This document shows, one piece after another, positions 46,446 to 52,553 of a DNA stretch of 53,609 nt. Both the position numbers and the translations under genes were made by a program. Within the stretch, counting starts at the first letter, position 1. Every line of letters starts with the position of its first letter. Source of the DNA: a virus. The stretch spans positions 1 to 53,609 of the IMG/VR virus record IMGVR_UViG_3300043099_000999. One strand, written 5' to 3'. The notes under the pieces are model-generated. The model saw only the letters and a program-made list of their open reading frames with translations, was not told the origin of the DNA and ran no database searches.

Positions 46446-46753
46446 TATTTTTCCTCTGGTGTTGTTGCTTGCGGCAGCGTGGATTGATGATACACAGCAT
46501 GCAACGTGTGCAACTCAATAAGCGCTTGCGCAAGCGGGAAGATGATTTGATCGTCAAAAGAGATTAGCCGCCCGGGAAAGTTGCGTAACTCGATTTTAAG
46601 GCGCCGGTCTTTTTCGTCATGCCAGACACGCAAATACGCAGGATACCCATCGATAACAGGTCCGACGTCAAGTGCATGAGCAGGCGCGACGTAGTTAGAC
46701 TTTGTTGGTTTTTCTGGCGCAAAAAACCAATCAGTCACTTTGCGCAACGTCAT
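46445..46753 (-). CDS. Unknown small protein
   Basis: This 102-residue protein is basic and short-stranded ('YPAYLRVWHDEKDRRLKIEL', 'FDDQIIFPLAQALIELHTLH'). It overlaps the next gene as TAATG and the SEC-C gene by 23 nt. No known motif is visible. Confidence 0.6.
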   Translation of the reverse strand: MTLRKVTDWFFAPEKPTKSNYVAPAHALDVGPVIDGYPAYLRVWHDEKDRRLKIELRNFPGRLISFDDQIIFPLAQALIELHTLHAVYHQSTLPQATTPEEK

Positions 46754-47183
46754 CTATTGGAATCTCCTGCGCAGATGTTTTATCAGCAATTCGTTCGTTG
46801 ATTAGCGCTACAGCAGTCGCGGAGTCTGGAACCTCAACGTACGGCAACGTGTTCTGCAGATGCTCCCATTTCGTTGCGCCAACGCCGGCGACATTAATCT
46901 CGTTCTCGACTTGCGGGCTAAAAATCTCTAGCCGCGCAATTTCGACAGCGAGCGCTTTATCGGAAAACACCATGATGCTGCCTTTTTTGTCGGCAAAAAA
47001 TGCCGTGCCAGCGTCATTCGAGATGACCCAACGCACAGGCGGTTCGCCCGTATCGATGTGGTGGTAAACCTCGGGGACGAACACAGCGCCTTCTGGCCGG
47101 CCGTGGCACTTTTTGAATTTGCGGGAAGAACCGCACGGGCACAGCTCATTGCGCCCGATTCTGGATCGTGTCTTCTCTGACAT
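46731..47183 (-). CDS. SEC-C zinc-motif protein
   Basis: The preferred start is ATG 47181-47183 after AAGGAG, 150 residues. Residues 6-25 'SRIGRNELCPCGSSRKFKKC' then 'HGR' form a SEC-C zinc-binding motif (C-x-C-x8-C-H). It normally sits at the C-terminus of SecA or in small proteins that bind partners through zinc. The rest is alpha/beta with no enzyme motif. The promoter at 47214-47241 is just upstream. Confidence 0.75.
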   Translation of the reverse strand: MSEKTRSRIGRNELCPCGSSRKFKKCHGRPEGAVFVPEVYHHIDTGEPPVRWVISNDAGTAFFADKKGSIMVFSDKALAVEIARLEIFSPQVENEINVAGVGATKWEHLQNTLPYVEVPDSATAVALINERIADKTSAQEIPIDDVAQSD

Positions 47184-47198
47184 AGGCACTCCTTGCAC

Positions 47199-47914: not shown

Positions 47915-47942
47915 GCAGGGGGCGGTTTTACCCGCCCCCTGC
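47915..47942 (-). terminator. Stable GC hairpin, possible terminator
   Basis: An 11-bp stem pairs 47915-47925 with 47932-47942 around a 6-nt loop, in the 72-nt gap between two genes. It lacks a U-run, so it may act only as a partial terminator or RNA stabiliser. Confidence 0.5.
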
Positions 47943-47960: not shown

Positions 47961-48572
47961 TCAGTCAAATACGCGCCGGATGCCGAGATCCGCTGCTACC
48001 GTGCGCTGGAACGTAATCCGGTATGTACCCGGAGGCAGAACCCAATCACCGTGTTCTGGATGCGAAATCTTGCTCTCGTGCGTGAGCGTAAAAATCGGAC
48101 CGCAGAAATTTAACGCGTCGCTAAGCTTATCAGCAATTAGGACGGACTTTGATCGCCACTTGTTGGCCTGTTCTTCAGTTTCACCAGCAATTTCACGAGC
48201 TAGTTTGCGCATATCCAGCGACAATTCCAGCACGCTATCTCGCACAGCTTGCCAGTCGTCTTCTTCGCCGGGGGCAATTGCGCTTACGTTTAGCACGTAA
48301 ACCGTAGCGTTTACGGACTCCTCAAGCATATGCCGCGAACCCTTGGTATTACCGGGGGCAAGCTGCATTGGATACACCGGCGCCATTACGCGCTTGTAGA
48401 ACTTTGGCGTTTCGCTCGGCTCCGGAATCTTTTGAATGTAGATATCGCCTTGCCGGACTGCGTCACCAATACTGGCAGCGTCGGGAAACCGCTGCTCTGC
48501 GTCGTTCTTGACGCGTTCTACTGCTTCGTCAACTCGGGCAACCGCCTTATCGATCGTTAACAACGTACTCAT
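47961..48572 (-). CDS. RQGD/HPEHGD-type protein (partner of DUF6745)
   Basis: This 203-residue protein has 'AVRQGDIYIQKIPEP' near residue 40, 'LAPGNTKGSRHMLEE' near 75-90, and 'SHPEHGDWVLPPGTYRITFQ' near the C-terminus. The pattern RQGD-x-x-x-x-x-(P), G-x-x-x-(G/S)-R/HAH, then H-x-EH-x-x-x-LP-x-G-x-Y-x-(I/V)-x-x-Q resembles small bacterial proteins often found near DUF6745 proteins. Here it is coded just after a DUF6745-like gene. Function is unknown; it could be a partner or regulator. AGGAG lies six bases before the ATG. Confidence 0.6.
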   Translation of the reverse strand: MSTLLTIDKAVARVDEAVERVKNDAEQRFPDAASIGDAVRQGDIYIQKIPEPSETPKFYKRVMAPVYPMQLAPGNTKGSRHMLEESVNATVYVLNVSAIAPGEEDDWQAVRDSVLELSLDMRKLAREIAGETEEQANKWRSKSVLIADKLSDALNFCGPIFTLTHESKISHPEHGDWVLPPGTYRITFQRTVAADLGIRRVFD

Positions 48573-48587
48573 GGAAAACTCCTAAAG

Positions 48588-49961
48588 TCAGGATGCACCG
48601 ACAACATTGATGGGATATTTAGCGTACGGCAAATAAGCCGTTGTAGCGCCATCTGCAAGCCACTTCTGCGCTTGTTCGCAGTTTGTGATTGCCTGATCGG
48701 GAAATTCTTTCAACTCGTTTTCATTTGCGGCCAAGCCATTCAGTACCGGACTATCGGGATGCCTGACAGTCCTTGGAACTGCGATAAAGTATTTTCTGCC
48801 GGTTGAGCGGCAAGACAATACCATACGCAGCGGTTCAGACGGACCCCACGGCCGCCGACCTGGACGATCGGGCGGATCGATCAACACCTCGAACGTGTTA
48901 TCGACCCAGTTTTCGCGGCTGTCTGCGATTTTGGCCTTAATAGCTGTCAGATAATTATGCCAGCCCATTCGGTCAATGGCTACTCGGCGCTCTTCTTCAT
49001 TATCGATATTGAAGATCATTTCTTTCGTCAGCGTCGTGGGCGCCATTACGATTTGCTCGCCGTACTGCGATAGATAATGCCCATCGACATACCACAGCTT
49101 TTTGCCGTCAGGCCAAACAACTGCCGGACCCGTGTCATTATGCAGCTGCTCCTCTGCAGTCACCTGAAACACCGGCCGATCGGTTAGCAGCAAATAAGCG
49201 CTATCAAACTGCATAAATGCGGGCACGTGGTGAAAAATTTCGTAAGGCCAGATTGACTGCGGATCTTTGCAGCCGATGGCTTTGCAAATAATCTCTGCCT
49301 GCACTGCGTCAAACTTGTGCCGGTTAGGAATATGGAGCCCGAGCATTATGTCATCTATAAAACCAGACACGGCCTCATGCAGTGAAAAATACGACATATC
49401 CACGTGAGCTTGCGCGCTCAGAAAATTTAGCCGCCAATCGCGCGTTTGGCATTCAGCTCGCTCGTCAACCGGCGCATTACTTTTCGGCACTGGGAACATA
49501 AAGCGGTACAGCGCGTGTAAATCTTGCAAACTAACCATTATGCGCGGCCCGGAATACGCCAACCACGGCCGCGGAGGTTCAGCGGTTGCCATGTTATGAA
49601 AATGCCGCTGAATTACAGCTAGCATCGTATTAGTGGTTGATTCAGGGCTGGCCCATCGGCACGCGCGATTTGTAAGTTGTATTGGGCGGCCTATGCGCGT
49701 AAGCGGTTTGATAAACGCTGTATCTATTCCTAATTCCGTAGCCAACTCCGTCGCCGCCTTTTTCGAAAAGCGCCCGCGAAGCACCGCCTGCGCGATGTAA
49801 AACTCGAGCGGCGAGCGCGCTTCAAAAAATCGCAAGTCTTGGGGGAAAGCGGCCTGCAGCAACGTTTTTGCCCGAGCTACGTTTGGCGGCGCCGTGCTTG
49901 TAATTGTTTCACGCCACCGGTGTGTAGTTTCTTCGATGATCCGTGTAAATCGCTTGCTCAT
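48588..49961 (-). CDS. DUF6745-like protein
   Basis: This 457-residue protein is in a family of unknown function by pattern. The C-terminal half has 'GPAVVWPDGKKLWYVDGHYL' and 'QIVMAPTTLTKEMIFNID', then 'EEERRVAIDRMGWHNYL', as in DUF6745 proteins. The N-terminal half is helical ('PLEFYIAQAVLRGRFSKKAA') and not assigned. It is encoded with an RQGD-type and a DUF6876-like gene. No catalytic residues can be named. Confidence 0.6.
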   Translation of the reverse strand: MSKRFTRIIEETTHRWRETITSTAPPNVARAKTLLQAAFPQDLRFFEARSPLEFYIAQAVLRGRFSKKAATELATELGIDTAFIKPLTRIGRPIQLTNRACRWASPESTTNTMLAVIQRHFHNMATAEPPRPWLAYSGPRIMVSLQDLHALYRFMFPVPKSNAPVDERAECQTRDWRLNFLSAQAHVDMSYFSLHEAVSGFIDDIMLGLHIPNRHKFDAVQAEIICKAIGCKDPQSIWPYEIFHHVPAFMQFDSAYLLLTDRPVFQVTAEEQLHNDTGPAVVWPDGKKLWYVDGHYLSQYGEQIVMAPTTLTKEMIFNIDNEEERRVAIDRMGWHNYLTAIKAKIADSRENWVDNTFEVLIDPPDRPGRRPWGPSEPLRMVLSCRSTGRKYFIAVPRTVRHPDSPVLNGLAANENELKEFPDQAITNCEQAQKWLADGATTAYLPYAKYPINVVGAS

Positions 49962-49992
49962 CTTAAGTAACCTTTCTTAAATGGGTAACTGC

Positions 49993-50385
49993 TCAGTATT
50001 CGCTCGGCAGCAGAATCGTGTAATGGATTCCGTCGCCAGAAGGCATGCAATACAGCTTTAGCTCATTTAGATCGAAATCCGTGTAGTCGATTTCCTGCTC
50101 AACGACAGGCGGCAATCCACTGTCTTCAACGCACACAAGGCGCGCTGTTTTGTCAGGGTTTACCGAAAGCGTCCAGAATTGTGCATCCTGCAGTCGCGGG
50201 TTTTTCAGTAATTCAGGCTGGTGCGCCGCAATTGCGTCCATAAGCCAGAATGCACCGTGTGCTCCGCCGTGCTCTGCTACGTATTGCGCGCCATCTGTTA
50301 AAAGCATTTTGGGAAACATCGGCGACCAGCGACGCCAGGTCTCGGTTCCTGTGAACTGCGATAGTTCGTGAGTTTTAATGGGCAT
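49993..50385 (-). CDS. DUF6876-like protein
   Basis: This 130-residue protein has the layout of the DUF6876 family: 'ELSQFTGTETWRRWSP', 'LLTDGAQYVAEHGGAHGAFW' then 'LMDAIAAHQPEL', 'DAQFWTLSV', and the final 'YTILLPSEY'. I chose ATG 50383-50385 with AAAGGA at 6 bases. Its function is unknown. It may serve with the adjacent DUF6745 and RQGD-type proteins. Confidence 0.7.
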   Translation of the reverse strand: MPIKTHELSQFTGTETWRRWSPMFPKMLLTDGAQYVAEHGGAHGAFWLMDAIAAHQPELLKNPRLQDAQFWTLSVNPDKTARLVCVEDSGLPPVVEQEIDYTDFDLNELKLYCMPSGDGIHYTILLPSEY

Positions 50386-50405
50386 CAATTATCCTTTATT
50401 CTGCT

Positions 50406-50747: not shown

Positions 50748-51200
50748 TTAAACAGGCCACACATACGGCAAGTCGTCTGGCTCGTCCCATCCAAAAACAC
50801 TGTAATACTTCTTATCTTTGCGCAGTAAATTGCTTCTGTGACTTGCGTGAAATGCGTCGTCGCCAATCCACAACGGTTTTTTTGCCGGCGCTAGCGTACT
50901 GCCCGCGGCCAGTCGGGCGTATACATCAATAAATTCGTGGCTCAGCGTGTCGTTAAATCTGCGCCGACGCCATTCGGCACACATACACGCGCCGTATACG
51001 ACTAGCGACAGCTCGTACCCGCGCCACATGCGTACGGCCGGGTGATTGCGCCAACCGCGCTTACCGGGCTTGTGGGAGCCTACAGCAACGCCTAGAGCCA
51101 GCAAGATCTGCTTGCACTCTAGGCGCTGTTTACCGAGGCGTTTATTGTCTAGATACTTTGCGGATTTTGCGTAGTCTGGATCAGGCAAAAACGTTTGCAC
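50748..51200 (-). CDS. Pyrimidine-dimer DNA glycosylase-like protein
   Basis: This 150-residue protein starts with GTG after AGGGA. It opens 'MQTFLPDPDYAKSAKYLDNK' followed by 'RLGKQRLECKQILLAL', contains 'GWRNHPAVRMWRGYELSLV' and 'WIGDDAFHASHRSNLLRKDK', and ends in 'YVWPV'. This is the pattern of the MSMEG_6728/Pyr_excise family, which includes T4-type pyrimidine-dimer glycosylase relatives. It probably repairs or cuts UV-damaged DNA. Direct activity is not shown. Confidence 0.75.
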   Translation of the reverse strand: MQTFLPDPDYAKSAKYLDNKRLGKQRLECKQILLALGVAVGSHKPGKRGWRNHPAVRMWRGYELSLVVYGACMCAEWRRRRFNDTLSHEFIDVYARLAAGSTLAPAKKPLWIGDDAFHASHRSNLLRKDKKYYSVFGWDEPDDLPYVWPV

Positions 51201-51201
51201 G

Positions 51202-51624
51202 TCAATCCCTGTTCTCCATCTCGTGCCGACACTTGTAGCAGATCAGCCCTTCCGCTGCTCCGCCAAGATCAGATACAGGATACAGTTCGCCGCAATAATG
51301 GCACTGATGCGTAACTGCCCCGGCCTCGACGTCTTGGCGCTGGTCGGCCATGTCGTAGGCCGCTTCTTGCAGCTTTTCATTTGCCATTTCGGCTCTGAGC
51401 GCGGCGACAGCCCGGCCCCCCGCCTCAAACGCCTCAACAGCTGTTTTTTCTTTTTTCGTTTCCATTAGCTCCACAAATTCATTGAATTCGCGTTCGTCCT
51501 CTCGGATAATGCGCTTGAATGCTTTTCTTAGATCTGCGTGAAACTCAGGCCGCGTGTGCGACTTTAACGCTACCCACAGCTCGTGCAGATTCTCTTTGAA
51601 ATGTCTAAATTGGCGCTTAGTCAT
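51202..51624 (-). CDS. Unknown protein with C-terminal zinc motif
   Basis: This 140-residue protein has a helical N-terminus with charged heptad-like patterns ('RIIREDEREFNEFVELMETK') and a C-terminal 'HQCHYCGELYPVSDLGGAAE' then 'ICYKCRHE', two C-x-x-C pairs suited to bind zinc. It overlaps hldD as ATGA. It may bind nucleic acid or a protein; no family is recognised. Confidence 0.6.
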   Translation of the reverse strand: MTKRQFRHFKENLHELWVALKSHTRPEFHADLRKAFKRIIREDEREFNEFVELMETKKEKTAVEAFEAGGRAVAALRAEMANEKLQEAAYDMADQRQDVEAGAVTHQCHYCGELYPVSDLGGAAEGLICYKCRHEMENRD

Positions 51625-52553
51625 CTGTAAAACTCCTTTCTGTATTGCTGAATCGCCGTCGCTAGCGGCGTGACCGGGGCGTGATATCCCGCGGCCCGTA
51701 ATTTTGATAAATCGGCTTGCGTGAATTTCTGATACGCACCTTCGAGCTCCGTCGGCATCGGAATAAGCTCGAGCTTTACGCCGACGTAGTTTTCGCGAAG
51801 CAGAGTGGCAAGCGCCATAAAGCTGACGGCCGCTCCCGTGCCGATGTTGTAGATACCGCTTATCCGGTTATCAAACAGGTAGAGCGACATAGCTACCGCA
51901 TCGTCTACGTAAATAAAGTCGCGCTTGATGTCTTCGCTGCCTTCAAATAAGTAAATGGTTTCATTGAGGTCTATAGCTTTAAAGCATTTGCACACAAAGC
52001 TCGCCATTTCGCCCTTGTGGTTTTCGCCGGGGCCGTACACATTGAAATAGCGCAGACCGGTCACGGGCACGGTAACTTTGCGGCACTCCAGCTGCCGGCG
52101 CACGTATTGGTCAAAAGCCCACTTAGAAAACGCATACGGTGATTTAGGCTTTTCGCATTCTGGCTCTTCGGTAAACCCGTTTTTGCCGTCGCCATACACG
52201 CTTGCTGAGCTGGCATATACGAACGGGGCTTCAAAACGTTTGGCTACTTCCAGCATTCGTTTTGAGAACGCGTAATTCTGTTCCATGAGAATCTTGCCGT
52301 TCGTAAACATCGTGTCAGATATAGCGCCAAGATGCACGACGCCATCGATGTCTACGTTGCAACCACCGGGCTCATTTTTGTCGATAATTTCGCGCCAATC
52401 GCAGTAATCGGCAAACTGTAGCCCGACCAGATTCATAGCCTTGCGGCCGGCCATGAGGTCGTCTACGACCAATATGTCAGATCTGCCTCGCGCGTTCAGT
52501 TCGGCTATGACGTTTGACCCAATAAAACCAGCACCGCCTGTGACGAGCAGCAT
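51621..52553 (-). CDS. hldD: ADP-L-glycero-D-manno-heptose 6-epimerase (HldD-type)
   Basis: It inverts C6 of ADP-D-glycero-beta-D-manno-heptose to give the ADP-L-glycero form, the last step of LPS inner-core heptose donor synthesis. This 310-residue extended SDR has 'VTGGAGFIGSNV' (NAD(P) site, residues 4-15), 'YASSASVYGDG', the catalytic 'YAFSKWAF' (Y-x-x-x-K, near residue 141), 'GLRYFNVYGPGENHKGEMAS' and 'YIKFTQADLSKLR'-type ends ('YQKFTQADLSKLRAAGY'). The 'HKGEMAS' and 'QADL' blocks are HldD-specific. It complements the phage hldE at 40027. The start follows AGGAG. Confidence 0.92.
   Translation of the reverse strand: MLLVTGGAGFIGSNVIAELNARGRSDILVVDDLMAGRKAMNLVGLQFADYCDWREIIDKNEPGGCNVDIDGVVHLGAISDTMFTNGKILMEQNYAFSKRMLEVAKRFEAPFVYASSASVYGDGKNGFTEEPECEKPKSPYAFSKWAFDQYVRRQLECRKVTVPVTGLRYFNVYGPGENHKGEMASFVCKCFKAIDLNETIYLFEGSEDIKRDFIYVDDAVAMSLYLFDNRISGIYNIGTGAAVSFMALATLLRENYVGVKLELIPMPTELEGAYQKFTQADLSKLRAAGYHAPVTPLATAIQQYRKEFYR

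Follow-up and report, generated by a model that had tools for sequence, protein, structure and literature searches.

The window, meaning the whole 53,609-nucleotide stretch of IMG/VR record IMGVR_UViG_3300043099_000999, is a linear record that likely represents a tailed-phage fragment, because it carries genes for a DNA polymerase, helicases, and UvsX-like and SbcC-like proteins. A search of the window DNA and of its own proteins against the phage collection returned zero matches. Three co-directional genes run along its minus strand in the order DUF6876, DUF6745, and a gene designated RQGD/HPEHGD after two motifs of its product (Table 1; RQGD hereafter). The initial annotation had described three genes in order with short gaps, and the reading frames bear this out, with 31 nt separating DUF6876 from DUF6745 and 15 nt separating DUF6745 from RQGD; both motifs that it named occur literally in the protein, RQGD towards the N-terminus and HPEHGD towards the C-terminus, and both are conserved. 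The hairpin that follows the RQGD stop codon has a perfect 11-bp, GC-rich stem, far stabler than shuffled sequence and without a T run, and possibly marks a transcript 3' end or a processing site. SEC-C-like proteins recur near the DUF6745-RQGD pair in related phages (L016 and L086, for example), and proteins similar to the epimerase/dehydratase of the window are encoded by related phages L016 and L101.

Table 1. Coordinates of the three genes and of nearby features in the window
Feature	Position	Strand	Details
DUF6876 gene	50385-49993	-	ATG at 50385 gives 130 aa; alternative TTG at 50388 gives 131 aa; Pfam PF21781
DUF6745 gene	49961-48588	-	457 aa; Pfam PF20530; alignment; AF2 model
DUF6745-stop to RQGD-start gap	48573-48587	-	15 nt; TAGGAG-type, ribosome-binding-like site
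RQGD/HPEHGD gene	48572-47961	-	203 aa; ORF, conserved residues, AF2 model, partner linkage
Hairpin just 3' of RQGD stop	47915-47942	-	GCAGGGGGCGG-GTAAAA-CCGCCCCCTGC; z -5.8
Small SEC-C-motif protein	46731-47198	-	close to the three genes
Pyrimidine dimer DNA glycosylase	50748-51200	-	PF03013, 1.4e-22; two genes upstream of DUF6876
NAD-dependent epimerase/dehydratase	51621-52553	-	upstream of the three genes

Features of the three proteins

The DUF6876 assignment rests on a match to PF21781 with an E-value of 2.8e-33 and 114.8 bits (cut-off 27) over 126 of 131 residues. The DUF6745 protein scores 27.0 bits against PF20530, exactly at the 27-bit cut-off (E 3.3e-6), and this borderline call is secure because relatives from the same clade exceed the cut-off well (46 bits for the protein on contig L016). 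It retains the family motifs RP..LH..GPA..DG..W..G, N-E-RR and C-STGR as well as the C-terminal motifs, but it differs from PF20530, a family without assigned function, in having a long helical N-terminal part, and it shows little similarity outside the core. Its C-terminal DUF6745 module closes with the residues NVVGAS; among 127 DUF6745 proteins, the last residue is Ser or Thr in 112.

In bacterial DUF6745 proteins, a constant C-terminal module sits behind variable N-terminal parts composed of leucine-rich or tetrapeptide repeats, and several cyanobacterial copies have an LRR-DUF6745 architecture. Copies within single cyanobacterial genomes are 58-70% identical over the last 170 residues and 26-34% identical over the remainder; in a genome with seven copies, the corresponding values are 70% and 26%. 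Among DUF6745 proteins, 34 of 84 viral ones and 23 of 45 from bacteria contain tandem repeats of the tetrapeptide type. Arrays such as VGDSVWDSVRDS or QLRDQLGGQL lie inside DUF6745 reading frames (L035, L038, L039, L221, L083, L131 and others), and seem to be encoded in units of 12 bp.

The RQGD protein of the window matches neither a Pfam nor an NCBIfam model. Its only PHROG match, at 8.4e-8, is to phrog_27831, a family that names no function; the match runs through the C-terminal part of the window protein, while in some bacterial RQGD proteins the same family matches almost the full length. Membership in the RQGD family was judged by a significant profile match together with QGD, GxxxGxxH, HxxH and terminal D motifs, all of which the window protein has. 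Across 68 RQGD sequences, G74, G78, H81, H171, H174 and D203, the last residue, are invariant, and 105 of 106 distinct RQGD proteins end in Asp. Two cyanobacterial members (L206:6931-7713 and L254:1042-1800), although extended by about 150 residues ahead of the C-terminus, still finish exactly in VVD or VAD. Bacterial members show GHxH and HxxH motifs, and the pattern of conserved histidines suggests a metal site.

AlphaFold2 models were confident, with a mean pLDDT of 91 for RQGD and 84 for DUF6745. RQGD is predicted to be a small beta protein that is interrupted, at about residues 97-156, by a helical insert of some 60 residues, which distinguishes the window protein from PHROG 27831. Foldseek searches of the PDB at E 0.001 returned nothing for either model, and Foldseek combined with VIA-align found no convincing solved fold for either (best Z 4.1 and 4.5). 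A weak likeness of RQGD to NAD kinase (Z 2.3-2.9) and one of DUF6745 to propeller fragments (Z close to 4) were both taken as noise. BFVD yielded one clear match, an uncharacterised phage protein of 122 aa that is probably of the same family, and one weak match to a lipothrixvirus protein, while no relative turned up among PDB chains searched by sequence. Our literature search found no paper naming DUF6745 or DUF6876, and mention of STM4011-4015, discussed below, only in passing.

No natural fusion of RQGD to DUF6745 was seen. The best candidate, L260:1465-3285, is a long repeat protein from a 2 Mb genome of the cyanobacterial phylum in which a weak RQGD-like N-terminal domain is joined to other repeats without DUF6745. 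It has no relatives among the viral contigs.

Linkage and distribution of the genes

Scanning viral contigs with the RQGD protein found 13 loci, with a DUF6745 match in 13 of 13 contigs. Using alignments as queries, we fetched 46 RQGD-seeded and 72 DUF6745-seeded viral loci. Iterated profiles placed the partner on the same strand in 45 of the former and 67 of the latter, counts that do not represent independent events, as the profiles were trained on the very loci counted and many of the viral contigs are close kin. The two genes usually overlap or lie within tens of bases of each other; those of the window, adjacent, co-directional and 15 nt apart, form such a module. Five of the six partnerless loci lie at contig ends (L085 among the RQGD-seeded, L135, L141, L143 and L146 among the DUF6745-seeded), leaving L130 as the sole partnerless viral locus with full flanks. 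DUF6745 comes first in 58 and RQGD first in 9 of the 67 DUF6745-seeded loci with both; because both orders occur, the linkage does not reduce to a single fixed layout.

Scanning genomes with the RQGD alignment identified five bacterial contigs, all five with DUF6745 beside RQGD, several of them being metagenome bins that could be phage-derived. More secure as bacterial cases are the cyanobacterial, actinobacterial and plasmid loci. The pair recurs in cyanobacteria, actinobacteria, Deinococcus, Methylobacterium and a Mycobacterium prophage. In 244 cyanobacterial genomes, DUF6745 is present in 21 and RQGD in 21, with 16 encoding both where 1.8 would be expected (Fisher 8e-17). When the genomes from which the RQGD query was built are excluded, 6 shared cyanobacterial genomes remain against 0.5 expected (p 9e-7). 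Actinobacteria have 4 shared genomes against 0.14 expected, a count to which the same caveat about query-source genomes applies. Linkage of DUF6745 with RQGD is far beyond chance. The initial annotation had described the two as frequent neighbours in bacteria and had proposed a gene-neighbourhood search; run for this pair, the search found them adjacent in phages and in several bacterial phyla.

Presence is patchy, extending to 21 of 244 cyanobacterial, 6 of 246 planctomycete and 7 of 246 actinobacterial genomes, and the two genes differ in copy number. DUF6745 reaches seven copies per genome, whereas the RQGD gene is usually single: genome G149 has seven DUF6745 copies and one RQGD, and G192, G119 and G059 are similar. 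A ratio of seven to one fits a shared partner rather than seven separate toxin-antitoxin pairs. RQGD was not detected in some DUF6745-positive genomes (G121, G213 and G217), in two of which the match contains stop codons.

Over 108 pairs, the DUF6745 and RQGD distance matrices correlate with r 0.60, whereas 1000 permutations gave 0.09 at best. Such co-divergence is what two genes travelling together should show, and it is also expected from linkage alone. Matched inserts in both partners of the clade of the window were considered as coordinated change and dropped, being confined to a single clade and scored by a noisy measure. Trees of 101 pairs, which leave out uncertain metagenome bins, require at least three switches between phage and bacterium for each protein; for DUF6745, the well-supported branches of the tree make all three unavoidable. 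Movement between phages and bacteria, raised as a possibility in the initial annotation, is borne out for the pair.

The same does not hold for DUF6876, the third member of what had been proposed as a functional trio. In favour of a three-part unit, four phage contigs share the gene order and the close spacing, and the DUF6876 protein is 67% identical to that of L016. However, an upstream DUF6876 is confined to the window, L086, L087 and L088, which together form one small clade in the DUF6745 tree, and in a sister phage (L101/L012) the gene directly preceding DUF6745 is instead one resembling the pyrimidine dimer glycosylase, a homologue of the glycosylase gene in Table 1. Among the 244 cyanobacterial genomes, DUF6876 is found in 18 and shares 2 with DUF6745, against 1.5 expected (p 0.47), and none of 20 cyanobacterial DUF6876 loci carries DUF6745 or RQGD. 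We therefore rejected the trio, a reading that is largely refuted and now very improbable; DUF6876 is a clade-limited local addition and probably not part of the core unit.

One copy of the pair resides in a cultured phage, Ma-LMM01 of Microcystis, as MAP_175 (RQGD) and MAP_174 (DUF6745). To one side of it lie the genes for DNA polymerase (gp178), exonuclease (gp180) and dUTPase (gp181), and to the other that for uracil-DNA glycosylase (gp173). Morimoto et al. 2018 (PMC5780444) list all four as middle genes, and the early block that they name does not include gp174 or gp175. Judged by their neighbours, gp174 and gp175 would belong to the middle (replication) class.

A different context is found on three Deinococcus plasmids, two Streptomyces plasmids and one Methylobacterium plasmid and in three actinobacterial genomes, where the pair adjoins STM4011-STM4015, a cluster that includes two radical-SAM proteins and a hydrolase. 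Such neighbours were seen at L233, L234, L235, L236, L237 and L290, in three bacterial phyla. In contrast, none of the phage and cyanobacterial loci examined has this cluster beside the pair; tblastn of STM4011-4015 against the viral loci gave one generic HemN-like match and no such cluster, and in the window, the neighbours of the pair either belong to other families or have no family match, with no STM4011-STM4015 homologues. The statement in the initial annotation that no enzyme is visible stands for the three genes of the window, but it does not extend to the several bacterial pairs with radical-SAM and hydrolase neighbours.

Possible roles of the pair

DUF6745 and RQGD very probably work as one unit. 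Our main reading, to which we assign a probability of roughly 0.55, is that they form a shared, physically interacting unit; our confidence in any particular activity is lower, and naming one is a guess, neither fold matching a solved structure. RQGD would be small, beta-rich and probably metal-binding through its conserved histidines, and would dock on the constant C-terminal domain of DUF6745, with contact at or near the conserved C-termini, Asp in RQGD and usually Ser or Thr in DUF6745. The variable N-terminal arm of DUF6745, whether leucine-rich repeats, tetrapeptide repeats or, as in the window, helices, would probably recognise a target, and a single RQGD could serve several DUF6745 proteins per cell. 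The phage-borne module has one RQGD to one DUF6745; it is probably expressed together with the genes of replication and would act on a host or phage target. Against docking stand the RQGD-like domain that occurs, weakly matched, without DUF6745 at L260, and the DUF6745-positive genomes and viral locus L130 in which RQGD was not detected.

Beyond this, we offer tentatively, as rather unlikely in its full form, an undescribed and widely shared recognition system in which a constant, small metal-binding subunit serves many DUF6745 proteins whose repeat arms vary with the target; the system would be bacterial, in some cases with a radical-SAM pathway, and acquired by phages for host control or counter-defence. 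The main rival makes RQGD a metalloenzyme or carrier that modifies or processes DUF6745, possibly at its C-terminus, with STM4011-STM4015 adding steps in bacteria, as in peptide maturation. The histidine cluster, the exact C-termini of both proteins, the single RQGD per many DUF6745 copies and the radical-SAM and hydrolase neighbours on the plasmids and in the actinobacterial genomes listed above are all in keeping with an enzyme and its substrate, but RQGD matches no enzyme fold, the phage and cyanobacterial loci examined lack STM4011-4015, and the Asp end is retained in phages with no such enzyme nearby; we regard this rival as doubtful. An anti-phage defence role in bacteria, with phage-borne copies serving for counter-defence or exclusion of other phages and with repeat arms recognising the opponent, would suit the patchy presence, the carriage on plasmids and phages and the variable arms on a constant domain, yet PADLOC defence models gave only noise-level matches, and we consider the role improbable.

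About equally improbable is a toxin-antitoxin pair on phages and plasmids, a reading implied by the initial annotation. Its appeal lies in two short, close, co-directional genes, in both orders, scattered over phages, plasmids and chromosomes, with several DUF6745 copies in some genomes. However, many DUF6745 copies have no local RQGD, the motifs and C-termini have been conserved rather than diversified from phylum to phylum, neither a toxin fold nor a toxin family was matched, and the copy in Ma-LMM01 sits inside a replication block.

A pair that tailed phages share with bacteria of several phyla, that has near-invariant residues of catalytic appearance and that shows no known fold points to an apparently undescribed molecular task. 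The novelty claimed is that the pair fits no known kind, and not that its function is unprecedented. If RQGD acts on repeat proteins at their constant end, it would provide a handle on many uncharacterised cyanobacterial LRR and tetrapeptide-repeat proteins and on the bacterial STM4011-4015 cluster.

With type II toxin-antitoxin systems, the pair shares a compact, mobile two-gene layout. It departs from them in that no toxin or antitoxin fold was found and in that one RQGD accompanies several DUF6745 genes, up to the seven of G149, whereas in a type II system every toxin gene is paired with a linked antitoxin gene of its own; a single RQGD serving many DUF6745 copies weakens that comparison. 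The closest known parallel in a cultured phage is Ma-LMM01, which differs from the window in placing RQGD first, in its bacterial-type GEVTGHKH and HEEH motifs and in having no adjoining DUF6876, but resembles it in the adjacency of the RQGD and DUF6745 genes, there among replication genes. Because this cultured model exists, the pair is directly testable as MAP_174/175.
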